IMG/VR virus record: IMGVR_UViG_3300017963_000451
Location: 1-39,447 of that record
Source: a virus
DNA length: 39,447 nucleotides
Direction: 5' to 3' (one strand)
Below the pieces are notes generated by a model, which did not search any database, was not told the DNA's origin, and saw nothing but the letters and a program-made list of their open reading frames with translations. Position numbers and translations under genes: made by a program. Position 1 is the stretch's first letter. The number at the start of each line of letters is the position of its first letter. Below, piece by piece: positions 1 through 39,447 of this stretch.

Positions 1-25
1 AGTCCAACACGTAAGTATTAGTCAT
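1..25 (-). CDS. 5' end of DNA polymerase A gene (joins 39447..37550)
   Basis: Read on the minus strand from 25, this stretch encodes MTNTYVLD, and the next codon is split across the window ends. Joining position 1 to 39447 gives LDLETRLID, which completes the D-x-E-T motif I of a DnaQ-like 3'-5' exonuclease. The start ATG (25..23) follows GGAGG/AAGGA on the minus strand and overlaps the stop of the preceding gene as ATGACTAA. The joined length is 1923 nt, exactly 641 codons. See the entry at 37550..39447 for the rest of the protein. Confidence 0.88.
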
Positions 26-10498: not shown

Positions 10499-10527
10499 AG
10501 TATAATAAATATCGTCTTTTTTGTCAA
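10499..10527 (-). promoter_or_regulatory. Main leftward early promoter
   Basis: On the minus strand TTGACA (10527..10522), a 17-nt spacer containing ACGATA, and TATACT (10504..10499). It is the outermost leftward promoter and faces away from the repeat region. Confidence 0.85.
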
Positions 10528-10551: not shown

Positions 10552-10719
10552 CTGTCCGGTTGCTACCCAGTAGAAATGACGCACTGGGCAGGATAAACTA
10601 CTAAAGGTGACTAGGTTACGAGGTGCTGCCCGGTTGCTGTCCGGTTGCTGCCCAGTAGAAATGACGCACTGGGCAGGATAAACTACTAAAGGTGACTAGG
10701 TTACGAGGTGCTGCCCGGT
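10552..10719. repeat. Two direct repeats of 83 bp, offset 85 bp, with internal hairpin
   Basis: Copy 1 (10552..10634) and copy 2 (10637..10719) differ at one base. Each contains an inverted repeat, TGCCCAGT, 11 nt, ACTGGGCA in copy 2 (shorter by the one mismatch in copy 1). Short TGYCCGGTTGCT units occur three times (10553, 10627, 10638), and a partial third copy of the hairpin arm (TGCCCAGT) follows near 10730. These look like iterons or operators. Confidence 0.9.
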
Positions 10720-15483: not shown

Positions 15484-15484
15484 G

Positions 15485-15511
15485 TGACACATTACTACGA
15501 CTCCTACATAG
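15485..15511 (+). promoter_or_regulatory. Late promoter P1 (divergent copy)
   Basis: TGACAC (15485..15490), exactly 13 nt, CTACATAG (15504..15511). The downstream AGAGTAAG part of the family is not kept. It precedes the first structural gene at 15553. Confidence 0.6.
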
Positions 15512-15552
15512 AGTGTACGGGAGGTAACACCTAATGTAAGGACGCACAGATA

Positions 15553-16355: not shown

Positions 16356-16922
16356 ATGGCTAATGAATTTAATGCAAGAGATCCGATTTGGAACGCTAAT
16401 AGAAGTAGCCCTGCGGTCGCGGTCGCCGACAACTTCACCAAGATGGGTACATGGGTTGTTCAAGACGCTGTGGAAGCAGCCTCTACCGCCACGGTAATCA
16501 ACGCCACAGGACATGTTGCTTCTGCTGGTGATCAGATCATAATGTCTAGCGGTACTTACGACGGAGAAGGCAGAGAGGTAGCCAGTGTCACCACCGACAC
16601 CATCACTCTTTCAGTTGCCCTTAGTGGAGCACCGACCGCAGCCGACACTTTCGAGATTGTAACACCGATACAACAAAACGCTGTTGCAGGTGCCGCATAC
16701 GCCCATATTCACAACGGGACTAATCAGCCCATAGACATTTCTTTTAACGGTACAACAATCCACACGTCTTTACTGTCTTTAGAAGAGTGGTTTCCTCCAG
16801 GAAGGAATCATAACCTAAACGCCATAGAGCGCGGCGACACCTCGGCTAAAGGGTTTGTCTGGCATAAAGCATCGTCCACGGCTCCATCGTCCGGTTCTAT
16901 AGATTGCTCTAGTTGTATGTAA
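16356..16922 (+). CDS. Probable virion protein, 188 aa
   Basis: The centre is a beta-rich, Thr/Ala-rich domain (DQIIMSSGTYDGEGREVASV) reminiscent of phage structural beta-sandwich modules, followed by NGTNQPIDISFNGTTIHTSL and a Ser/Cys tail (SSGSIDCSSCM). AAAGGAG lies upstream. Its stop overlaps late promoter P2. The virion role is inferred from composition and position. Confidence 0.6.
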   Translation: MANEFNARDPIWNANRSSPAVAVADNFTKMGTWVVQDAVEAASTATVINATGHVASAGDQIIMSSGTYDGEGREVASVTTDTITLSVALSGAPTAADTFEIVTPIQQNAVAGAAYAHIHNGTNQPIDISFNGTTIHTSLLSLEEWFPPGRNHNLNAIERGDTSAKGFVWHKASSTAPSSGSIDCSSCM

Positions 16923-16955
16923 CACATATATGGCCTTCCTACATAGAAGAGTAAG
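16920..16955 (+). promoter_or_regulatory. Late promoter P2
   Basis: TAACAC (16920..16925), 13 nt, CTACATAG (16939..16946), AAGAGTAAG (16947..16955). The -10-like part lies at the edge of the loop of the 16932..16977 hairpin. Confidence 0.85.
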
Positions 16956-16977
16956 ACCTAGTAGGAGGGCCTTTTTT
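16932..16977 (+). terminator. Terminator hairpin overlapping late promoter P2 and the TerS ribosome binding site
   Basis: GGCCTTCCTAC (16932..16942) pairs with GTAGGAGGGCC (16961..16971), 11 bp with one G-U pair, followed by TTTTTT (16972..16977) directly before the ATG at 16978. The 3' arm contains the ribosome binding site GGAGG. RNA entering from upstream would form this terminator; RNA started at P2 would lack the 5' arm. Confidence 0.8.
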
Positions 16978-17499
16978 ATGGACGAATTATCAATATGGAC
17001 AGACGGAACCCCAGGTATCAACGTTTGCGCCGAGCAGAAGCAGGCTCTAGAGTTGTACCTAAGATATAACACTGTAGCAGCCATCTCCGAGATGGTAAAC
17101 AAGCCATTCCCAACAGTCCGTGACTGGGTATACAAACCCCGTAACGGGATGCGCCCCTTTGCAGAGATCCGCAATGAGGTTGAGAAGGATCAAATCCAAG
17201 AACTCACCAAACACAAAATGCCACTCATGAAATCCATTATGGATAACTCCCTACACACCATAAAAAACTCACTCGAAGCGGTTAAAAAATCCGGCGTTGA
17301 ACTCACGATTGACGAAATCAAGAAACTATCCGACATTGTAGGCAACATGGACAAGATCCTGAAACTAGATGACGGCATGGCAACTGATAATATCGCGATC
17401 GCCCGTGTGAACCCAATCAACACAGCCAAAGAGGTTAAGGAGATCCTCGGCGACGTAGACGACTTCGGTATTTTTGACATTACTCCAGAGGAAAACTAA
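16978..17499 (+). CDS. terS: Probable terminase small subunit
   Basis: This 173-residue protein from the ATG at 16978 (MDELSIWTDGTPGINVCAEQ) has an N-terminal helix-turn-helix-like segment (YNTVAAISEMVNKPFPTVRD) followed by a long helical region, the layout of phage small terminases, which bind the packaging site and load TerL. It lies shortly upstream of TerL. A longer frame from 16930 would start inside the hairpin; GTAGGAGG at 16961-16968 supports 16978. No closer family can be named. Confidence 0.65.
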   Translation: MDELSIWTDGTPGINVCAEQKQALELYLRYNTVAAISEMVNKPFPTVRDWVYKPRNGMRPFAEIRNEVEKDQIQELTKHKMPLMKSIMDNSLHTIKNSLEAVKKSGVELTIDEIKKLSDIVGNMDKILKLDDGMATDNIAIARVNPINTAKEVKEILGDVDDFGIFDITPEEN

Positions 17500-17917: not shown

Positions 17918-19451
17918 CGCTACAGCGCAGGTACTCCACGACTTACAAAAAGTCTGGACTCCTTACGAAGGCCGCAAGCTACCCCCAAGCCATCCTTTCA
18001 TGCAAGACCTCAAAACAACTGAGTTCTACCCAGCAGAAGGACAGAAAACCATTGGAAAAGCCATTCTTTCCGGTCAGTTTCGCCTTGTGTTCGTACAGCT
18101 GGGACGACAAACAGGTAAGACAGAGTTAGTTAACGGCGTAGCGTGGTACAAAGGTTTACTATCCCCACGTTCGGGTATGTATTACTTTTGTCCTAAGCAG
18201 AAGCAGGCCAAGGAAGTCGTTTGGTCTAAGAACCGCATCCAAACAATGAACGCCGCCACCGCTCTGGACTTAGAAAAGGTCGATGACTTTGTCAACTACG
18301 GGAAGAAGTACATCAAAGGCAAGCCTAACAATGCAGAAATGCGTTTGAGTTGGGTAAACGATTCCTTTATCAAGATCGACGGTTCAGACAACTACGATGA
18401 ATACCGTGGTATCACTCCTGACCTCGTAATCTTTGATGAATACCGTGAATTCAGACCAGGCGCTTATGATGCGTTCAAAGCCTCAACGACTACCAAAAAA
18501 GCTACAATCGTTATCATATCCACTCCTCCACCTGCGAAAGGTTTCTACACTGAGTTGATGGACTACGCTAAGAATCCAGAGAACACAGACGCCGTCTTCT
18601 TCCAAGCTCCTACTTGGATGAACCCTCACCAAGACTTAGACGAATTAGCCAGCATCCGCGAATCTTATCGACAGAAGGGCGAATTGGACGTTTGGTTCAG
18701 AGAGTATTGCGCCGAGTTCGTAGTCGGTGGCTCAAGATCCATCTTCCCCATGCTCAAAGGTGACGAACGAGTACGCCATGCAAGCGCCATGCAGATGGCC
18801 AGCAAAGCCCAAGACTTTTATTGCATCGCAGACCCTGGCTCAGCTTCCAAAGGCTCAGCGTTTGCAGTACTCTTTGCAAGTGTCAACCCTTACACGAAAC
18901 GACTTGTCCTCATGGATGAGCTCTACCTAACCAAGGAAGGAGAAAAAACTGTAGGTGTAATCGAACCCATGATCCGAGAAAAACTAGCCGAATTAGCTCC
19001 TCACTTAGCAAAACACGACTGGCAATTCTACTATGATGAAGCCGCCACTTGGTTCAAAAATGAAATGGTCGAACGTGGTTACGCTTTCAACCCTACGAAT
19101 AAGAAACAGAAGTCTAAGGACGAAGGCCTTTCTACAATTAAAGATGCGCTCCTAGCCAACAAAGTAACCTGGTCTTCACGCTGTGAAAACCTCATGTGGG
19201 AGATGACCAACTACGTAAAAGACGAACACGGTAAGATACCAAAGAAGGATGATCACTTAATTGATGCGTTCCGCTACTTGATCCAAGTATCTCACTATCA
19301 CATTCGCTACCACGCCATGGAGAAATCTTCAGGTATTGATTCCGAAGGTATGACAAAATGGGTGTCTTTAGATGACGATTTAAGAGCAATGGACGACAAC
19401 AATCTCTTAGATAATGGAAGCAACGACGATTTTCTTTCAGAATTTATGTAA
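17889..19451 (+). CDS. terL: Terminase large subunit
   Basis: This 520-residue packaging motor has Walker A GRQTGKT (72-78), Walker B LVIFDE (179-184), a coupling motif STPP (211-214), and RNase H-like nuclease acidic residues in YCIADPGS (D315), FYYDEAATW (D383) and DDHLIDAFRY (D459). It translocates DNA into the prohead and cuts concatemers. The start is a TTG at 17889 with CGGAG nine nt upstream. It is followed by late promoter P3 and a terminator. Confidence 0.92.
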   Translation: MDDKHKAQINATAQVLHDLQKVWTPYEGRKLPPSHPFMQDLKTTEFYPAEGQKTIGKAILSGQFRLVFVQLGRQTGKTELVNGVAWYKGLLSPRSGMYYFCPKQKQAKEVVWSKNRIQTMNAATALDLEKVDDFVNYGKKYIKGKPNNAEMRLSWVNDSFIKIDGSDNYDEYRGITPDLVIFDEYREFRPGAYDAFKASTTTKKATIVIISTPPPAKGFYTELMDYAKNPENTDAVFFQAPTWMNPHQDLDELASIRESYRQKGELDVWFREYCAEFVVGGSRSIFPMLKGDERVRHASAMQMASKAQDFYCIADPGSASKGSAFAVLFASVNPYTKRLVLMDELYLTKEGEKTVGVIEPMIREKLAELAPHLAKHDWQFYYDEAATWFKNEMVERGYAFNPTNKKQKSKDEGLSTIKDALLANKVTWSSRCENLMWEMTNYVKDEHGKIPKKDDHLIDAFRYLIQVSHYHIRYHAMEKSSGIDSEGMTKWVSLDDDLRAMDDNNLLDNGSNDDFLSEFM

Positions 19452-19484
19452 CACCAATAAGTACGTTCTACATAGAAGAGTAAG
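19449..19484 (+). promoter_or_regulatory. Late promoter P3
   Basis: TAACAC (19449..19454), 13 nt, CTACATAG (19468..19475), AAGAGTAAG (19476..19484). It overlaps the TerL stop codon and lies upstream of the portal block. Confidence 0.87.
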
Positions 19485-19565: not shown

Positions 19566-19802
19566 ATGATCATAGCTTTATCACTAACAGCGCTATTATT
19601 CGCCATCTCAGGATTCGTGCTAGGTCTTCTTGGTTTCATACAGGCCAGAGCAAACGCACTTTCCACCCACACCGTTCAATACCAACCAGCTCAGCAGCAA
19701 GACATTTCACAGTTTTTCGGTGAAGCAGCTCCAGAGCACGACGAAGGGTTTGAAGTCCCTAATGATAAGATAGAAGAAACCATCTTAAAAGGATTTGAAT
19801 AA
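19566..19802 (+). CDS. Small membrane-anchored protein, 78 aa
   Basis: The N-terminal segment IALSLTALLFAISGFVLGLL is a membrane helix, followed by an acidic soluble tail. It overlaps the portal start by one nt (TAATG). It could be a holin or another late membrane protein; its position before the portal does not settle this. Confidence 0.65.
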   Translation: MIIALSLTALLFAISGFVLGLLGFIQARANALSTHTVQYQPAQQQDISQFFGEAAPEHDEGFEVPNDKIEETILKGFE

Positions 19803-21958: not shown

Positions 21959-21961
21959 TTA

Positions 21962-21997
21962 TAACACAATTAAACAGTAGATACATAGAAGAGTAAG
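21962..21997 (+). promoter_or_regulatory. Late promoter P4
   Basis: TAACAC (21962..21967), 13 nt, ATACATAG (21981..21988), AAGAGTAAG (21989..21997). Positions 21962..21996 are repeated at P6 with one mismatch. It precedes the scaffold and coat genes. Confidence 0.87.
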
Positions 21998-24852: not shown

Positions 24853-24853
24853 A

Positions 24854-24889
24854 TAACACCTTACCAACCCGACTACATAGAAGAGTAAG
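24854..24889 (+). promoter_or_regulatory. Late promoter P5
   Basis: TAACAC (24854..24859), 13 nt, CTACATAG (24873..24880), AAGAGTAAG (24881..24889). It lies directly after a terminator, which supports it being a real start of transcription. Confidence 0.9.
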
Positions 24890-24909: not shown

Positions 24910-26058
24910 ATGGCAGGATTCTCAACCACCTCGGGTGGCCTTAACTTCCAGTACCCAAACCGAGACACCGAGAACTGGGATGCTGTCATGGCTAACTCGT
25001 TCACTACCATCTCTTCCCACGACCACGATCGTGACACAGCAGGTCGCGGAAAAGTCTTGAATGACCGCTCTATCCTAGCAACAAATACTGGATGGTTCCA
25101 AGCCACAGATTTCGCCGGAACAGGCACAGTTAACCTCATTCGCGCAAACACCTCAGACTTAATCGAATTAGGCGCAAACGTAGCAACTCTTGGAGTCACA
25201 GGAGCAGTTACCCTTTCCAGTACCCTAGGCGTAACCGGAGCCACCACACTTTCCAGTACCCTATCAGTCACAAGTGCAGCGACTTTCGGAGACCTAGTAC
25301 AGATCTCCGCCAATGACACCTGGTTTCAAGGTAAGAACGCGGCGGACTCGGCGTACATCAACCTACTAAAAGTCAACACTAGCGACGATGCAGAACTCGG
25401 CGCGGATCTAGACATCAAAACAAACGTAATAAAAACCACCACTACAAACGGAGATGTAGAACTAGTCCCAGACGGCACAGGCCGGGTGCGATTAGGTGAC
25501 ACAGGCCCACGAGTAGAAAACGGAGTTGGTGCCCTAGGCCAGTTCTTAATGACAAACGGTGTTGATTCAGCCGATTTTAAAACTCTTGGATGGGAAGTGG
25601 TAGACTCTACAGCAGCAGCAGGCCAAGCGGAAATACTCTTCGACTTATCTACATATTCCGCCGAATTCACATCGTGGGTAATCTATATGACAGGAGTAGG
25701 TGGCTCTGTATCAAGTTACCCTACGGTAGAGCCTAGGACGCCAGCAAGCGGAGCAATTACTAGTATATGGGGAAAGTTCGACGTGGGCGGGTTTGTCATG
25801 GCGTCTGGAAACGCTATTCATGGATCAAGTACCGCAGGAACAGGGACCGCGAAACATTGCCTAGTCTCTTTGAGGTACAACGCAATGCCAAATAATACAG
25901 TAGCGCCAATTATGGAAGGATGGTTCTTAAACACAGCTGGTAACAACATGCCAGTATTCGGCTTCGTAGGATCTATCGTCGGCGAGCTAGCCTTTAAAAA
26001 CGCAGCAGGTACTTTAAACTCAACAGGTACGGTGTATTTACTAGGGAAGAGGTCTTAA
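24910..26058 (+). CDS. Tail fibre-like protein, 382 aa
   Basis: The N-terminal module GFSTTSGGLNFQYPNRDTEN followed by WDAVMANSFTTISSHDHD recurs in the 26320 gene and is probably the virion anchor. A shaft with repeated GVTGAVTLSSTLGVTGATTL units (about 95-115) follows, then a larger beta-rich head from about residue 200 that could bind the host. The shaft repeats are visible as DNA repeats near 25190-25270. It is the first gene after P5. Confidence 0.75.
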   Translation: MAGFSTTSGGLNFQYPNRDTENWDAVMANSFTTISSHDHDRDTAGRGKVLNDRSILATNTGWFQATDFAGTGTVNLIRANTSDLIELGANVATLGVTGAVTLSSTLGVTGATTLSSTLSVTSAATFGDLVQISANDTWFQGKNAADSAYINLLKVNTSDDAELGADLDIKTNVIKTTTTNGDVELVPDGTGRVRLGDTGPRVENGVGALGQFLMTNGVDSADFKTLGWEVVDSTAAAGQAEILFDLSTYSAEFTSWVIYMTGVGGSVSSYPTVEPRTPASGAITSIWGKFDVGGFVMASGNAIHGSSTAGTGTAKHCLVSLRYNAMPNNTVAPIMEGWFLNTAGNNMPVFGFVGSIVGELAFKNAAGTLNSTGTVYLLGKRS

Positions 26059-28026: not shown

Positions 28027-30650
28027 TGGCAGTAACTCACGGCATACGCAAATTTTACTCATCCTTCAAAGGTCTTAATGAGATCGTTGATGACATCACA
28101 CGCGATGCCGGATTCGCCACCGCTGCGGAGAACGTCAAGATTCTAGATGACGGTGCTCTGTCCAAACGCAGAGGATACAAGATCTTTGCAGACGAAGCCG
28201 GAGGCTACGGTGTACTAGGGTTTGACAGAATTGATCCAGAGGACGGCACCACAACCAATGAAATTCTCGTTCTTTCCGATACAATCCACCGCCTAAAAAC
28301 CGCGACTCTAACAATAACCAACTCTAATGCCAACGGACAAGACGTAACCATCTCAGTTTCTGGCGACTCCTCTTCCGGTACCGGGACATCGGGATGGGGT
28401 TCAGCTCCTTGGGGTGCTTTCCCATGGGGAGACCCAGCAGGTAGAGGATTCATCTTAGGCTTAGACGTAGCCCAGCTGATAGACAACAACGGTAATGAAC
28501 TTTACCCAGCTGAAACGGTAGCTTTCTACCTTGGTGATGAAATCGAGAACGAAGGTCTTACAATTGCTGCCCTAGTATCAGGCTTAAACTCTAATCCATC
28601 GCTTACAGCCTCTGCCACAGTAGAAACAACCACACCTTCCCCCTTCCTTGAATTACTAAATGGGACAACACTTGCAGACGGAGAATCTGTAGAGCTGACG
28701 TACTATTACACTGAAGAAGTTGCAAAAGACTCAGGTGCAGGACTTACCAACGGTTTCGCAGCCTTCCAAACAGACTCAGCCGCTAGCCACCTTGACCATT
28801 CAATATTCAACAGATCTGTATATTTCACAACTGGGTTAGACCCACTTCAACAGTACGACGGGCAAGCTCTTTTCAGAGCCGGCATGGAAGCAGGAACACA
28901 ACCCACCACAACCTCAGCCGCTTCTGGCGTTCTTACAGGCGATTACCTTCACAAGGTTCAGCCATGGTTCAGAGATCGCAATGGCCAAGTCCATCGTGGC
29001 GCGATCAGTTCAGCAAGCACATCACTCACTCTTTCCAGTGAGAAAGCCGTAGTCACAGTAACCAACATACAGGATGGCAACGGTTTCGATGCTCGCGGCG
29101 CTTATTCAGACGGTATCCAGTCCAATTCTCCAGTATCAGGCTTGGTTACGTTAACTGTAGACGACGGAGCAGGTGGAGCACACACAGTAGTTGCTGGTGA
29201 CAAGATTCGAGTATTTAACAGTGACGTAGCGACAAACGCTTACGCTGAGTACGTTGTATCATCAGTCACAGCCACCACAATTGTAGTTGAATCCTCTGTT
29301 GACATCGACTTAACAGACAACCTAATAATCTCCACTGGTATCTTTCTTGACGTATTCCGCACAAAGACAAGTGGTTCAACTTACTTCCTGATCGAGACGC
29401 TCAACAACGACCCCTTCAACGCTACACAATCGTACACAGATAACACGGCAGACGCTTCCGTAGGCGCACGTTTCTTAAATCCAATCAGAGATCCAGCGGA
29501 GCCACCTCAAACAAAATATGTCACGAACTTCAACAACTCCCTTGTCTTAGGTAATAAGAAGACTGACCCTAACGCTGTGTACTACTCCGAGCCTGACGAA
29601 CCTACTAACTTCCCAGTACTAAACTTCTTCTTAGCAGAGAACAACGACGGTGGATCGATTACTGCCCTGACTCAATCTAACGAGACTCTTGTTATCTTCA
29701 GAGAATCCAGTATCTTCTTGATGACAGGTGACTTCTCTCGCTCCAGAATCAACGTCACCGCCCTTAGCACTGGCGGAGTAGGTTGTACTTCACACACATC
29801 AATAGCAGACATCAACGGTGTTCTGTTCTTCCTCGGTAACCGCGGTGTGTACGCCATGGCAGGTGCGGCACTCCCTAAACTCATCTCTAATCAGATCATC
29901 AAAACCTTAACCTCTAGACGACCAAGCACAGAGGAATTACAATTCAGCCGAGCGCTAGCAGTCCACCACGAACAGGACAAGCAGTATATTCTTTACATTC
30001 CCTCAGAGTCTACGGACTCAGGTAACCTATACTCCGATGAATACTCCCTCTGTGTGGTCTACGATTACGCACAAGATAACTGGACAGAGTGGAAGAATAT
30101 TCACTTCTCCACTGGAGCGACCTATTCCAACAAAAAACTCTGGTTTGCCTCACGAGAATTACGCACAGCAGATTCAGCAGTAACATACAGAGTGTGGAAA
30201 CAACACAATGACGGTGAACTCCACGACTACGGAGACCAGTTAGACCCAATCGAATTTAAGTACGGCAGTGGTTGGGAATCAGTAGGTAACCCATCGATAG
30301 CGAAGAAATTCTTACGTGTGAAGCTCCAGTCATACACAGACCTCGACAACCCAATCCCCCTATCCGATTTTACCGTAGACGCTTCAACAGAGATTGACTA
30401 CAAAGAACACACACCACACAGTATATTCTCTTTCACATTCCCAGATAGAGGCTCTACTTGGGACTCTAGACCTTGGGACACATTCACTTGGGGTGGTGCA
30501 CAGCAACCGACTTATAAGACGAAACTTCGCAAAGGACAAGCTCGTTCCCTGCGCCTACTTTTTGAAAACACAGAGTATGACACCAACGTAATTTTTTCTG
30601 GCTTCGAGCTAGAATATGCAGCTCCACAAGGTAACACAATTAAACAGTAG
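28026..30650 (+). CDS. Large tail hub / stabilisation (nozzle-like) protein, 874 aa
   Basis: From the ATG at 28026 (MAVTHGIRKFYSSFKGLNEI, a TAATG overlap; an upstream GTG at 28014 is less likely). The segments NETLVIFRESSIFLMTGDFS and FFLGNRGVYAMAG are typical of podovirus tail-nozzle (P22 gp10-like) proteins with beta-propeller repeats. Two Trp-rich inserts, GWGSAPWGAFPWGDP and TWDSRPWDTFTWGG, share a pattern. The last codons overlap late promoter P6. Confidence 0.78.
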   Translation: MAVTHGIRKFYSSFKGLNEIVDDITRDAGFATAAENVKILDDGALSKRRGYKIFADEAGGYGVLGFDRIDPEDGTTTNEILVLSDTIHRLKTATLTITNSNANGQDVTISVSGDSSSGTGTSGWGSAPWGAFPWGDPAGRGFILGLDVAQLIDNNGNELYPAETVAFYLGDEIENEGLTIAALVSGLNSNPSLTASATVETTTPSPFLELLNGTTLADGESVELTYYYTEEVAKDSGAGLTNGFAAFQTDSAASHLDHSIFNRSVYFTTGLDPLQQYDGQALFRAGMEAGTQPTTTSAASGVLTGDYLHKVQPWFRDRNGQVHRGAISSASTSLTLSSEKAVVTVTNIQDGNGFDARGAYSDGIQSNSPVSGLVTLTVDDGAGGAHTVVAGDKIRVFNSDVATNAYAEYVVSSVTATTIVVESSVDIDLTDNLIISTGIFLDVFRTKTSGSTYFLIETLNNDPFNATQSYTDNTADASVGARFLNPIRDPAEPPQTKYVTNFNNSLVLGNKKTDPNAVYYSEPDEPTNFPVLNFFLAENNDGGSITALTQSNETLVIFRESSIFLMTGDFSRSRINVTALSTGGVGCTSHTSIADINGVLFFLGNRGVYAMAGAALPKLISNQIIKTLTSRRPSTEELQFSRALAVHHEQDKQYILYIPSESTDSGNLYSDEYSLCVVYDYAQDNWTEWKNIHFSTGATYSNKKLWFASRELRTADSAVTYRVWKQHNDGELHDYGDQLDPIEFKYGSGWESVGNPSIAKKFLRVKLQSYTDLDNPIPLSDFTVDASTEIDYKEHTPHSIFSFTFPDRGSTWDSRPWDTFTWGGAQQPTYKTKLRKGQARSLRLLFENTEYDTNVIFSGFELEYAAPQGNTIKQ

Positions 30651-30667
30651 ATACATAAAAGAGTAAC
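30632..30667 (+). promoter_or_regulatory. Late promoter P6
   Basis: TAACAC (30632..30637), 13 nt, ATACATAA (30651..30658), AAGAGTAAC (30659..30667). It overlaps the end of the tail gene and is almost identical to P4 over 35 nt. It drives the ejection-protein block. Confidence 0.85.
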
Positions 30668-31026: not shown

Positions 31027-32226
31027 ATGACTTCCCCTGAAATCCCTGAAATCCAATTCCCTACGGAAGAGGAATTAAGAGCTTCGGCACAAAAACGTTT
31101 CATGGATATTCGCCAGCAACAAGAGCTTGACCGAGCAGCAGCCCAGCAGCAAGCACAACAAGTCTTTGGAGAAGGCTCATTGGGCCGAGTAGAGCAAGGA
31201 CGTGCTCCAGAAGTCGCTAATATCTTAGCCCTTCAAGGACAACAAGCTACCAGTGGCGCAGCCGGACTCGAAGCAGCCGCAGCGCGTCGACAGCAGACAA
31301 TCGCAGAGGGTGGCCGAGACCCAGCGTTCCAACAGATCGAAGAAGCAGCCCAACGCGCCCAAGACGTACAAACACAAACTTCTCTCCGTCAACTACGTGG
31401 CGACCTAGGAGCACAAGGAGTCCGCGGAGGCGTCAACATCCAACGACAGCTTCAAACACTCGGTGGCGCAAACTTAGCCGAGTCTCAACTCCAAGCTCAA
31501 CTCGCACAAGCACGTTTAGGAAGAGTAAGTGAAGCCGAAGCAGCGGAAGAAGGCCTACAGCGTAGTATAGCACAGCAACGCGCATCGGGGCTGCAACAAG
31601 CAGGACAAGGACTCTTCCAGGCTCGCGCAGAGGAAGCCGCCCGAGCAGAAACCAACACCCAACGCGCTTTGCAAGAACGGCTCGGACGATTACAACTCAC
31701 CGAGTCTCGCGCACAAGCTGGAACACTCGAAAGGGCTGCCGCCACACAAGAAGTCAGCTCTCAAGCTCAACTCCAAGCCCAGCTCGAACAAGCCAACATC
31801 GCGAACAAGATCGCCCTCATCGAAGCCAACAAACCACCTGCGCAGACAACAGTACACGATTCCGGTAAGATCATCTGTACTGAACTTCATCGACAGGGTT
31901 ACCTCTCTGATGAAGTATATCAAGGCGACTGCCTCTACTCTGTACGGGTACCTCTTGAGACTAAGATCGGTTACTGGTTCCTAGCTTCACCTCTAGTGAA
32001 GAGAATGCCTACATCCAAAGCTCTTACCCTCCTAGCATTACCGATTGGAAAAGCCTGGGCAACTGAGATGGCTCACCGAGTAGGCAAATCTGAGAAGGGT
32101 TCAATCTTAGGTAGATTAGTATCGTGGATAGGAGAGCCTTTGTGTAACCTAGTAGGCCGTGGATTAATTCGATTTAATCTTGTTAATCCCCAACACATAC
32201 AGGCACCAGCTACATATAAGAGTTAA
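31027..32226 (+). CDS. Ejection/internal virion protein with Cys-containing C-terminal domain, 399 aa
   Basis: Residues 1-275 are Gln/Ala/Arg-rich coiled coil. From TVHDSGKIICTELHRQGYLS a compact domain starts, with ETKIGYWFLASPLVKRMPTS, a pattern found at the ends of other podovirus internal proteins. The combination suggests a protein delivered with DNA through the envelope. P7 lies over its last codons. Confidence 0.7.
   Translation: MTSPEIPEIQFPTEEELRASAQKRFMDIRQQQELDRAAAQQQAQQVFGEGSLGRVEQGRAPEVANILALQGQQATSGAAGLEAAAARRQQTIAEGGRDPAFQQIEEAAQRAQDVQTQTSLRQLRGDLGAQGVRGGVNIQRQLQTLGGANLAESQLQAQLAQARLGRVSEAEAAEEGLQRSIAQQRASGLQQAGQGLFQARAEEAARAETNTQRALQERLGRLQLTESRAQAGTLERAAATQEVSSQAQLQAQLEQANIANKIALIEANKPPAQTTVHDSGKIICTELHRQGYLSDEVYQGDCLYSVRVPLETKIGYWFLASPLVKRMPTSKALTLLALPIGKAWATEMAHRVGKSEKGSILGRLVSWIGEPLCNLVGRGLIRFNLVNPQHIQAPATYKS
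32191..32226 (+). promoter_or_regulatory. Late promoter P7
   Basis: CAACAC (32191..32196), 13 nt, CTACATAT (32210..32217), AAGAGTTAA (32218..32226). It departs from the others at three bases and overlaps the end of the 31027 gene. Confidence 0.72.
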
Positions 32227-35611: not shown

Positions 35612-35740
35612 ATGAAACAGAAACTAGAGAAGATCTTTAGAAAAGCCGCAATATTCTTCGTACTAAAATGGGTAGCCTCTAAGTCGAAGTCTACCCATGA
35701 CGTTCTTTCGGCCTTGTTTAATTTACTTGACGATATCTGA
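35612..35740 (+). CDS. Last rightward gene, 42-aa amphipathic peptide
   Basis: I translated this frame directly: MKQKLEKIFRKAAIFFVLKW at the start and ALFNLLDDI at the end. It has a basic N-terminus and a short hydrophobic patch. It starts three nt after the ejection-protein stop and runs 18 nt into the convergent kinase-sigma gene. It could be a lysis peptide or a small virion protein. Confidence 0.5.
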   Translation: MKQKLEKIFRKAAIFFVLKWVASKSKSTHDVLSALFNLLDDI

Positions 35741-36778
35741 GTATAGATCATGGAGTAACACCCTAAGTTTCCTGTGGATAAAATACAAGCGTTGTCGAGA
35801 GTAATTTTCGTTGATGTCTAGCTCGGCGGCTAATTCCTTATGCTTCCATCCATCATGCCGTAGAGTAAACAACTTCTGATCAAATTCCGACAGCGTAGCC
35901 ACAGCGTCGAGGAGTCTTTTTCGCAGGAGAGGAGCACTTTCCACATCCTCCAAAGCTTTCAGATCTTCCAACCCAGAACCTAATACCACATGTTTGCTAT
36001 ACGTCTGAGCCTTCCTAACACGATTCTGAATCTCAAATCCGATGACTGAGTACATGAACGTCCAAGGCGTACAACTAAAATCATATTTACGTCTCATTTG
36101 TTTGAGGGCGTAGTAGAACAACTCCTGTGCCTGGTCATCGATATCAACCTGGTAGAACCATTTCCTACTACACACGCCTTTGATCCTAGGCAGTAACTTA
36201 GTATACAAAGAACCAATTGCAACACTCTGTCCAAGCATTACACTCATCGCTTCCGCTTTGTTTGAAAGAAACTGTAGAGTTCCTCTGTTAATAATAAGGT
36301 GGTCAAAATTATGGCTATCAAGCGCACACTCGGATTCGTGGGATGACCGCAGAGTACTGTTCCCCACAACACGCACCGTAGTAACTTTCGCCCCTTCGTC
36401 ACAATCGTTCGAAAAAGCCTCCTTGATAGCTTCCATTTCATTTGGGAATCTCCAGTCTGTTATTACAAAATACTCTCCTTGTGAAGCTTGTATAGTCTCA
36501 ACAACTTTACGGACCCAGCGTTTGGGATCCATCTTACTATAAAAATCATGCATGAAAAGCAATACGTCTCTAGGTGTTTGATACTTCCACCCAATCCATA
36601 TGACAGAGTCCTTTAACTCAACATCATGGAAATACCGCAAAGGCAGTCCAACGAATTTACTGGCTTCTTCCTTTATAAAATCACCAAAGGCCACTCTTTG
36701 CCAATCACCTTGTAGCATACCTGCAAAGGTGTCTTTACCAGACCCCGCCTTTCCAGATAACATTAGAATATTCTTCAT
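35723..36778 (-). CDS. Deoxynucleoside monophosphate kinase fused to ECF-type sigma factor
   Basis: This 351-residue fusion has two parts. Residues 1 to about 185 are a dNMP kinase: P-loop SGKAGSGKDTFAGML, ITDWRFPNE and a HESE segment before DHLIINRGTLQFL. Residues about 190-351 look like an ECF sigma factor. Region 2 is LYTKLLPRIKGVCSRKWFYQ, then DIDDQAQELFYYALKQMRRK, then CTPWTFMYSVIGFEIQNRVR. Region 4 is LDAVATLSEFDQKLFTLRHD, then WKHKELAAELDINENYSRQR with an HTH. Kinase makes dNDPs for phage DNA; the sigma part should direct host RNA polymerase to the late promoters. There is no stop between the parts. Internal ATGs (codons 178, 181) lack good ribosome sites. Confidence 0.88.
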   Translation of the reverse strand: MKNILMLSGKAGSGKDTFAGMLQGDWQRVAFGDFIKEEASKFVGLPLRYFHDVELKDSVIWIGWKYQTPRDVLLFMHDFYSKMDPKRWVRKVVETIQASQGEYFVITDWRFPNEMEAIKEAFSNDCDEGAKVTTVRVVGNSTLRSSHESECALDSHNFDHLIINRGTLQFLSNKAEAMSVMLGQSVAIGSLYTKLLPRIKGVCSRKWFYQVDIDDQAQELFYYALKQMRRKYDFSCTPWTFMYSVIGFEIQNRVRKAQTYSKHVVLGSGLEDLKALEDVESAPLLRKRLLDAVATLSEFDQKLFTLRHDGWKHKELAAELDINENYSRQRLYFIHRKLRVLLHDLYSDIVK

Positions 36779-36790
36779 ACCATCCCCCGA

Positions 36791-36812
36791 GAAACCCCCT
36801 CCGAAGAGGGGG
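36791..36812 (-). terminator. UUCG-loop terminator/attenuator before the kinase-sigma gene
   Basis: On the minus strand CCCCCTC, TTCG loop, GAGGGGG (36812..36795), then TTTC. It lies between the 36821 gene and the fusion gene, whose ATG is only 12 nt further. It should lower expression of the sigma factor relative to upstream genes. Confidence 0.75.
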
Positions 36813-36820
36813 GACTATTG

Positions 36821-37024
36821 TTAACGTTTGATTAGCTTCTTTAGTACAGCTGCGATCTTTTGGTTGATCGATTCCTTGTTCTTCTCTGCAAACTCAACGA
36901 CTTGATCATCAATCTTGTTTTCAGATTTAGCAGCCTGCTTCCTGACAAATACCAACAAGGCACCCATCGCGAAACCAACTAACAACAACATGTTCTCAGC
37001 TAAGAGATTCAATACTTCTTCCAT
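36821..37024 (-). CDS. Small inner-membrane protein, 67 aa
   Basis: From the ATG at 37024: one N-terminal membrane helix (LLLVGFAMGALLVFV) and a charged helical tail ending AAVLKKLIKR. AAGGA precedes the start, one nt after the RuvC stop. A longer frame from 37084 would overlap that gene without a ribosome site. Shape fits an i-spanin- or holin-like protein but not uniquely. Confidence 0.62.
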   Translation of the reverse strand: MEEVLNLLAENMLLLVGFAMGALLVFVRKQAAKSENKIDDQVVEFAEKNKESINQKIAAVLKKLIKR

Positions 37025-37025
37025 C

Positions 37026-37553
37026 TTATTTTTCCTTCTTTTGGTTGTACATCCAAAGAGCCATACCAACTGCATCGATGGCATGCTCGTAGTTACTCGC
37101 CGTTACTTTGTGCACCCACGGCCAGGTGGCAGGATCTTTGTTTTCGATCCCAGCAAAAATTCTAGGGTGGTTCTGCTCCTTACTACGGGACTCGTTCCAC
37201 GTCTTAGGAAGCACGAAGCACTTTTCCTTTGCATCTACCATGGTGTAGAACGCCCCGGCTACTTTACCCATCCTTATGAGTACGTTAGCGTTAGCGCCGG
37301 ATCTACCAGCACGCCTAGGGTAGCTCTCTTGTGCCTCTACGACTAGCATATCACAAACAAAGAATTGAGGAAAGTCTTTTTTGTATTTTTCTAACCCGGC
37401 GATCATTGCATCCACCTTTTGCAAGCTCTTTCCTGGAGCCTGCCAAGCGGGCAAGATGAAACCAGCGTGTTCTACAAAGATTCCATCCTCAAAAACTTCG
37501 ATTTGTGCTATCCCGGCCTTGACATAACCTGGATCAAATGCGGTGATTATCAC
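37026..37553 (-). CDS. RuvC-like Holliday junction resolvase
   Basis: This 175-residue protein has the RNase H-fold catalytic pattern: D7 in TAFDPG, E73 in VVEAQESYP and the C-terminal EHAIDAVGMALW with D160. It should cut branched DNA and so clear recombination and replication intermediates before packaging. The start is a GTG overlapping the polymerase stop (GTGA), so translation is probably coupled. Confidence 0.8.
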   Translation of the reverse strand: MIITAFDPGYVKAGIAQIEVFEDGIFVEHAGFILPAWQAPGKSLQKVDAMIAGLEKYKKDFPQFFVCDMLVVEAQESYPRRAGRSGANANVLIRMGKVAGAFYTMVDAKEKCFVLPKTWNESRSKEQNHPRIFAGIENKDPATWPWVHKVTASNYEHAIDAVGMALWMYNQKKEK

Positions 37554-39447
37554 GCTGTCACCCCCTTAGGTTCGATTGACTTACTAGTAGAATACACAAA
37601 AGGTCCAGCCTTCACCCATCTTTCCATGGCATCAGCTTCAACCGTGATCCTTACATCCGGTAGTACTTCTTGCATACCCTTTAACATTAATGTACATGCT
37701 AGGTCAATTCGTTCGTGTAGTTTATCATCATTCGGCATTTCTATAATATATTCATCGTGAATGAAAGCTAGTAAGTCACAGTCGCTTAGTTCACCTACTT
37801 CACACGCTTCAGCCAATAATAAACCAGCACCTTTTGCACCATCTGCTGAACGTGATTGCAAGCCGAGTCCATTCAGTCCATCGCAATAACCACACCGAGC
37901 ACGCCATCTACCACTTGAGGAGTAACCCCAACCGTCTACACCTTCCTGATACGCATACCACCGAAAGAGTTTAGCAACTTCAGGGTATGTATCCAGGAAG
38001 ACTTTCCTCAATTCTCGTGCAGCGTCTTCCGTCATATCCTCAATGCCATAAGTCTTCTTAGCATAATCGGTCATTCTAGCCGGCCCAAGTCCTCCAGGAA
38101 ACCCGAAGTTAGCAGCCTTGGCCATTTGACGAAAGAATTTAGCATCTTTGTCTCCACCCTTCATAGCTGCCATGAACTCATCGTAGCTGATATCCTCGTG
38201 TTTCTTCAGACTCATCAGCTGGGCACCCATAACACAATGAGGATCTTTACCCGCATTGATAGCGTCCATCATCCTAGAGAATCCAAACATCTCGAACGTT
38301 ACTTGTGCCAAGCAATCTAACTCCAAGTGCCCATAGTCGATACCGACCAACACTTTCCCAGGCCTAGCAATATGAGCTTCTCTGATATTACCACCTCTAG
38401 GCAGGTTCTGCACGTTTTCACTAGGTAACCTCTCACCCCTGTCTTTAGGTTTCACCCCGTGACTACTGGTGCGACCAGAGGTTACCAGTACATTGAACTG
38501 AGGATGAATAGTCTTATCCCTGAGCAGATTCGGCAGGTAAGTACTGAGCATCTTCCTATACCCCTGGTATTCCTTAAGAGCATCAATAACCGGGTCTTTA
38601 GGGTAATCCGCAATAGCATCAGCAGCTAGGCTAACCTGTCCATTAGGGAAGGATTTACTAGGTTCTGAATACTGCACAGACTCAGGATATAACTCAAGGA
38701 TATAAGCCCTAAGCTTCTTCTCCCCGATAGAAACCTTCCCTGCCTTCTTCCCCTTCGCTGCCACAGTAGCAAACCCAGCGTCGACTAGCGCAGCGAGAGG
38801 CTCTTTCCCCTTCTCCTCAAGCTCAGCCTGTGTGTCTAACACCAACTGTGTGTCTATCAAGAATCCTTTCTCAGTCATCAATCCACCGACGAAATCAAAG
38901 AATGTCTGTAGGTTCTCGGTGCCCATGGAACACTCACCTTCTGGGTTGGCTAGCTCCGCTTGTCGAGCGTACACTTTCCATCCCCACTTAGTGTCGTCCA
39001 GGGCGTAATCGATAGCAGCTTGCGGCCAATCTACAATCTCGACGTCCTCTAACTCAGAGTAACGCAATCGCCAAGCGTTAGGATCGGTCTTAGCGTCACT
39101 GATATCTTCTTGGAAATAACGCATTACACAAGCAGCTAACGATTTAGGGTTGTTCAAATGACCCACCACCGAGAGATGTAACAAGGCTTCTCGAATCTTG
39201 GTACACCTGATGCTTCCTCTCTTGTATGCCTCAAAAATCAGCGGACGCAAGCCAGCAAAGTGTTTGTATAATACAGTCATATCAAATTTAGCATTGTGCC
39301 ACACCATCGTATGCCCTTCTCTGAGCATCATCTCGATTGTCTCAGCAATCTCCTTGGTGAGGAAGTGTCCCCCTGTGTCGGGGCAGTAGACGGAAAGAAC
39401 GATCGGCTTAGGCGCGAACGTCGTCTTGTCTATCAACCTGGTTTCTA
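37550..39447 (-). CDS. DNA polymerase A (family A) with 3'-5' exonuclease; 5' end continues at 25..1
   Basis: Joined across the window ends this is 640 residues. Exonuclease motifs: DLET (8-11), then HNAKFD. Polymerase motifs: A LVGIDYGHLELD (about residue 375), B RQMAKAANFGF (about 450; Phe at the position of E. coli Phe762), and C FIHDEY (about 570). It replicates the phage genome together with the VapE-like helicase, AEP-like primase and SSB. The part in this entry lacks its first 9 residues. The leftward frame ends overlapping the RuvC start. Confidence 0.92.
   Translation of the reverse strand, partial: ETRLIDKTTFAPKPIVLSVYCPDTGGHFLTKEIAETIEMMLREGHTMVWHNAKFDMTVLYKHFAGLRPLIFEAYKRGSIRCTKIREALLHLSVVGHLNNPKSLAACVMRYFQEDISDAKTDPNAWRLRYSELEDVEIVDWPQAAIDYALDDTKWGWKVYARQAELANPEGECSMGTENLQTFFDFVGGLMTEKGFLIDTQLVLDTQAELEEKGKEPLAALVDAGFATVAAKGKKAGKVSIGEKKLRAYILELYPESVQYSEPSKSFPNGQVSLAADAIADYPKDPVIDALKEYQGYRKMLSTYLPNLLRDKTIHPQFNVLVTSGRTSSHGVKPKDRGERLPSENVQNLPRGGNIREAHIARPGKVLVGIDYGHLELDCLAQVTFEMFGFSRMMDAINAGKDPHCVMGAQLMSLKKHEDISYDEFMAAMKGGDKDAKFFRQMAKAANFGFPGGLGPARMTDYAKKTYGIEDMTEDAARELRKVFLDTYPEVAKLFRWYAYQEGVDGWGYSSSGRWRARCGYCDGLNGLGLQSRSADGAKGAGLLLAEACEVGELSDCDLLAFIHDEYIIEMPNDDKLHERIDLACTLMLKGMQEVLPDVRITVEADAMERWVKAGPFVYSTSKSIEPKGVTA

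Follow-up and report, generated by a model that had tools for sequence, protein, structure and literature searches.

Does a single phage protein both handle nucleotides and direct RNA polymerase to late genes? The question is raised by one gene of the window, by which we mean the whole stretch of viral DNA analysed here (39,447 bp). The preliminary description had reported an uninterrupted 351-codon frame in which a dNMP kinase is joined to regions 2 and 4 of an ECF sigma factor. The frame was found as described, on the minus strand, with the following parts.

35723..36778, minus strand: kinase-sigma fusion gene, 351 aa (open frame, profile matches, relatives, structure model).
36230..36778, minus strand: N-terminal dNMP-kinase domain, residues 1-183 (phrog_139, PF21448, structure matches to 1dek and 7xnd, residue table), with the motifs SGKAGSGKDT (P-loop, 8-17), TDWRFPNE (107-114) and HESE (147-150).
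35993..36211, minus strand: sigma region 2, residues 190-262, core binding and -10 recognition (PF04542, model helices).
35744..35935, minus strand: sigma region 4, residues 282-345, -35 recognition helix-turn-helix (PF08281, 3hug match).

Profile searches of each half and a structure prediction had been proposed as checks, and both bore out the in-frame join. Residues 1-180 match the phrog_139 dNMP kinase profile (E 3e-32; 1e-32 for the N half alone), and the whole protein matches PF21448 with 33.3 bits against a gathering score of 27.1; profile scores beyond threshold together with the fold place this half among phage dNMP kinases. Residues 188-341 match the sigma70-ECF profile TIGR02937 with 51.6 bits, above the curated cut-off of 42.9. 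The Pfam scores lie close to their cut-offs: Sigma70_r2 (PF04542) reaches 24.3 bits versus 24.0, and Sigma70_r4_2 (PF08281) reaches 25.3 bits, just below 25.7, or 26.8 when the C half is searched alone. With regions 2 and 4 co-linear and TIGR02937 above its cut-off, the C half classifies by sequence as an ECF (group IV) sigma factor; it comprises about 165 aa and lacks regions 1.1 and 3, which is the minimal ECF architecture also seen in the model (region 2 helices, linker, region 4). Given these matches, both halves are real and not a product of reading by eye.

The structure model built from 40 sequences (pLDDT 88.1, pTM 0.72) superseded a first one from 3 sequences (pLDDT 62), which was too weak for the kinase half; region 4 of 3hug was matched by the first model with a TMt of 0.81. 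Foldseek returned E. coli sigma-E (1or7) as the top match (E 5e-5), as well as T4 dNMP kinase with dGMP (1dek, E 1.9e-4). With VIA-align, residues 1-183 matched phosphomevalonate kinase 7xnd (Z 16.9, 152 residues, 2.5 A) and T4 dNMP kinase 1dek (Z 15.8, 172 residues, 2.6 A). Region 2 is modelled as three helices (185-203, 210-231 and 238-263), followed by a low-confidence linker at 272-280 between the two sigma regions. In the model, about 3 residues separate the final helix of the kinase (168-181) from the helix that opens the sigma part (185-203).

The fusion is not an assembly artefact. A second assembly of the same phage, the IMG/VR contig L001, is 100% identical over 13.9 kb with the frame intact, and the same fusion occupies the same locus in three diverged environmental phage contigs, L004, L026 and L064 (48%, 44% and 41% identity to the window protein by tblastn; 42-51% as an overall range). 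The intact frame in the second assembly and in the three relatives excludes chance or a sequencing frameshift concealing two genes. One further hit, in L023, was discarded as an antisense false match. The relatives share the gene order DNA polymerase, 175-aa protein, small gene, fusion, the last convergent with a late gene; L064 differs in having two extra small ORFs. The DNA polymerases of L004 and L026 are about 70% identical to that of the window, so the fusion has been maintained for a long time. Where finite, dN is well below dS, dN/dS being mostly not computable with synonymous sites saturated. The relatives score 72.8, 63.3 and 55.2 bits against TIGR02937, all above the window copy, whose region 2 departs furthest from the canonical form among the four; region 4 is 67% identical between the window and L004.

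Outside this clade the combination was not encountered. Among about 70 dNMP-kinase ORFs from viral contigs, a sigma domain is present only in the four fusions; in searches that gave kinase matches in 363 and 657 phage records, query coverage stayed below 80% throughout, and 19 bacterial loci matched the kinase part alone. The claim of the preliminary description that no such fusion is known stands, as no earlier description was found; a nucleotide-kinase domain on a sigma factor was likewise missing from the literature searched, although such absence is no proof.

The position of the gene bears on when it would be expressed. Contig L001 joins the window ends (1/39447) base to base, with the DNA polymerase gene spanning the join, and the genome is therefore a 39,447-bp circle or circularly permuted. 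The leftward unit consequently extends from about 10.3 kb across the 1/39447 junction to 35.7 kb, and the fusion is its last gene, as previously stated. The relevant features are as follows.

10499..10527, minus strand: sigma70-like early promoter TTGACA-17-TATACT (11/12), reading into the leftward unit.
37550..39447, minus strand: family A DNA polymerase, crossing the circular junction into window positions 1-20.
36821..37084, minus strand: small gene before the fusion, with a hydrophobic N-terminal stretch, at the same place in relatives; no family match.
36795..36812, minus strand: GC-rich hairpin with UUCG loop just upstream of the fusion start, with a weak U-tract.

The fusion had also been said to follow a terminator. 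A hairpin does precede it, with equivalents in all four phages, but its U-tract is weak, and the label "terminator" is reasonable but unproved. Compared with shuffled sequences, the window hairpin is not more stable (z 0.74), and those of the other phages have z from -2.0 to -2.4.

Several other loci of the window deserve mention. The 175-aa protein (37026-37553) is 83-86% conserved in the relatives and looks RuvC-like by eye (FDPGYVKAGIA), with no Pfam or PHROG match. Two adjoining genes encode zincin-like metallopeptidases (PF18818; 8966-9415 and 9446-9985); by eye, the N-terminus of the second looks signal-like. The divergent intergenic region contains two near-identical 83-nt direct repeats (10552-10719), possibly a replication or packaging site. 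A cytidylyltransferase (PF02348, 12307-13035) and an MptE-like protein (PF01973, 14245-15483) are unusual auxiliary genes located shortly ahead of the late cluster.

No RNA polymerase or second sigma factor was recognised among the window ORFs scanned, so the virion genes probably rely on the host core enzyme. A family of sites unlike sigma70 promoters was found upstream of these genes. Repeats of TACATAGAAGAGTAA among intergenic regions were spotted by eye and then tested, the second element emerging from the aligned upstream DNA. The resulting motif is bipartite, GTAACAC-N14-TACATAGAAGAGTAA, with the variable form [GA]T[AG]ACAC, 14 bases and TACATAGAAGAGTAA. Written as RACAC-N14-TACATA, the motif has 7 occurrences in the window, each of them on the plus (late) strand and shortly upstream of a late-gene start; 300 dinucleotide shuffles gave a mean of 0.017 and a maximum of 1.

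15484..15519, plus strand: predicted late promoter 1, variant GTGACAC-N14-TACATAGAGTG.
16919..16954, plus strand: predicted late promoter 2, GTAACAC-N14-TACATAGAAGAGTAA.
19448..19483, plus strand: predicted late promoter 3, ahead of the portal gene group.
21961..21996, plus strand: predicted late promoter 4, ahead of the scaffold and capsid genes, ATAACAC variant.
24853..24888, plus strand: predicted late promoter 5, ATAACAC variant, with equivalents in genomes G001, G002 and G004.
30631..30666, plus strand: predicted late promoter 6, with equivalents in the same three genomes.
32190..32225, plus strand: predicted late promoter 7, the weakest, inside a coding end.

Spacing is constant. AACAC and TACATA are separated by 14 bases at six late-strand sites, and by any other spacer of 5-30 bases only once. 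Pooled over four genomes, GTAAC-N17-ACAT occurs 15 times on the late strand versus once on the other, with at most 3 occurrences for any other spacer. In the relatives the -35 element is likewise GTAAC and the -10 element drifts (ACATATAAG, ACATATATT, ACATTAAT). Equivalent sites precede the genes at 24910 and 30682 in all four phages, and the gene at 19566 where covered. A predicted non-host promoter motif lies upstream of late genes in the window and its relatives alike. Sites 3, 6 and 7 overlap coding ends, and part of their conservation may therefore be coding; at promoter 6 the -35 element overlaps the end of the upstream gene, encoding its conserved GNTIK terminus. The ATG at 16930 (ORF 16930-17499) falls within predicted late promoter 2; for this reason, and as the match in the relative G004 begins at 16978, the latter is the likelier start. 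Another repeat, AATACTCATAGTATA (10769, 10831), was considered as a phage promoter and dropped, having only two copies, which is chance level.

We consider it probable, with good confidence, that the fusion serves as a late sigma factor of the phage and carries a dNMP-kinase domain at its N-terminus. Conservation in four phages, the TIGR02937 scores, the fold matches and the constant-spacer promoters on the late strand favour this reading, and the precedent of phage 7-11, discussed below, points the same way by analogy. The promoter family fits the sigma half of the fusion and was absent from the preliminary description. In the proposed scheme, the leftward early and replication unit would be transcribed by host RNA polymerase with its own sigma70, and the fusion, lying behind a leaky hairpin, would be made last. 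The ECF sigma at its C-terminus, with regions 2 and 4, would join the host core RNA polymerase and direct it to the late promoters GTAAC-N17-ACATA, which would drive the virion genes. We infer both this recognition and its timing, as well as any role of the kinase domain. The latter, held by a few-residue linker, may either phosphorylate dNMPs, in which case a single protein would serve both late transcription and the supply of nucleotides, or act as a nucleotide-responsive regulatory domain.

We compared the kinase half with 36 stand-alone viral kinases; the set was fetched by P-loop pattern, and the conservation of its P-loop is thus partly by construction. The preliminary description had expected intact core residues, which is true in part. 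The fusions retain the P-loop, R70, D108, R110, E150 and N164 (36/36 stand-alone kinases), plus W88 and E114. However, Q74 (33/36), T78 (28/36) and R137 (35/36; alignment uncertain at this column) are absent from all four fusions, and the window copy, unlike its three relatives, has in addition lost G77 (36/36) and R81 (35/36). ATP is likely still bound through the intact P-loop, whereas dNMP specificity may be altered or lost, judging from these substitutions; the loss of near-invariant residues makes dNMP kinase activity uncertain. Stand-alone phage dNMP kinases, such as T4 gp1 and Arthrobacter phage Liebe gp24, share the fold and core motifs with the fusion, but are separate enzymes of about 185-240 aa; the fusions differ from them in lacking Q74, T78 and R137. 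Phage 7-11 gp033 (L139 3735-4010) was considered as an unfused counterpart and dropped: although annotated as a dNMP kinase, it has 91 aa and no P-loop, and the annotation is probably wrong.

An active dNMP kinase and an active sigma factor may simply be joined for co-production, without cross-talk, a serious contender to which we give somewhat less than an even chance. All four proteins retain the kinase catalytic core together with a full sigma, and many phages encode a separate dNMP kinase of about 190 aa. Such an arrangement sits less well with the residue changes at the likely nucleotide site, with the very short linker, and with a fusion kept at 42-51% identity though separate genes would suffice. 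A possible but rather unlikely alternative, in line with the sensitivity of late transcription to nucleotide state raised in the preliminary description, is a sigma factor whose kinase domain has lost or narrowed its catalysis and gates the sigma by binding ATP, dNTP or dNMP, so that late genes would follow the nucleotide state. The linker of only about 3 residues in the model, the retention of the P-loop and the five 36/36 residues alongside the loss of Q74, T78 and R137, and the additional loss of G77 and R81 in the window copy are consistent with it; regulatory N- or C-terminal extensions in at least 26 ECF groups, e.g., ECF41 and CorE, provide a precedent (PMC8999054). On the other hand, the R137 column depends on the alignment, T4 dNMP kinase apparently lacks R81 too, and the conserved catalytic residues speak for some residual activity.

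A sigma-like half that no longer binds RNA polymerase, tethering the kinase to DNA or serving as a DNA-binding regulator while another factor reads the motif, seems to us quite improbable. Region 2.2 of the window copy (DIDDQAQELFYYAL) is indeed less canonical than that of L004 (DLKDVTQEALLQVI), and about 30 small window ORFs have no assigned function, so another factor could read the late motif. Yet regions 2 and 4 are co-linear and conserved in four phages, and a bipartite motif resembling -35 and -10 elements is the expected target of a two-region sigma. Internal initiation yielding a separate sigma besides the fusion is very unlikely: three of the four phages have ATG codons close to the domain border, but L004 offers a TTG at codon 171 and no ATG there, nor a convincing ribosome-binding site.

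If the fusion is a late sigma factor with a kinase domain, it joins a nucleotide-metabolism domain to a late regulator in one chain, kept across a diverged clade, with every genome also carrying promoters that are its predicted targets. Late transcription in phages has to be timed to follow DNA replication. We speculate, only tentatively and against our own expectation, that the domain with the kinase fold senses the pool of nucleotides (ATP, dNMP or dNTP) and thereby gates the late genes; virion production would then start only once DNA precursors or replication reach a given state. Metabolic control of the late switch would lend itself to a direct test, for which a single purified protein, core RNA polymerase from a commercial source and short templates would be enough. 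The fusion and its late promoters would also constitute a small, orthogonal sigma-promoter pair.

Among the closest known systems are the ECF-type sigmas of phages 7-11 (SaPh711_gp47) and phiEco32 (gp36), which act with host core RNA polymerase on late genes. In phage 7-11, gp47 with E. coli core has been demonstrated to use late promoters GTAAtg-(16)-aCTA, with transcription starting 6-9 bp from the promoter element (PMC8948821). These share the GTAA core and spacing with the window clade, both being GTAA-18-A when counted alike; as in the window, the 7-11 sigma gene lies in a leftward replication cluster with late genes on the opposite strand (PMC8948821). Unlike the fusion, gp47 has 185 aa and no kinase domain, and phiEco32 gp36 promoters are single-element, in contrast to the bipartite motif of the window. 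A direct comparison of the fusion with gp47 shows no significant similarity in sequence (hhalign probability 1.4, E 0.038); both match TIGR02937. ECF41, ECF42 and ECF238/CorE resemble the fusion in that a minimal sigma made up of regions 2 and 4 carries an additional domain on one polypeptide, but they are host genes and their extensions are mostly C-terminal (SnoaL, TPR, cysteine-rich). A nucleotide kinase is not among the ECF extensions described in the literature examined. With no earlier description found, the kinase extension is apparently new, on a protein that otherwise resembles known kinds, phage late sigmas and extended ECF sigmas.
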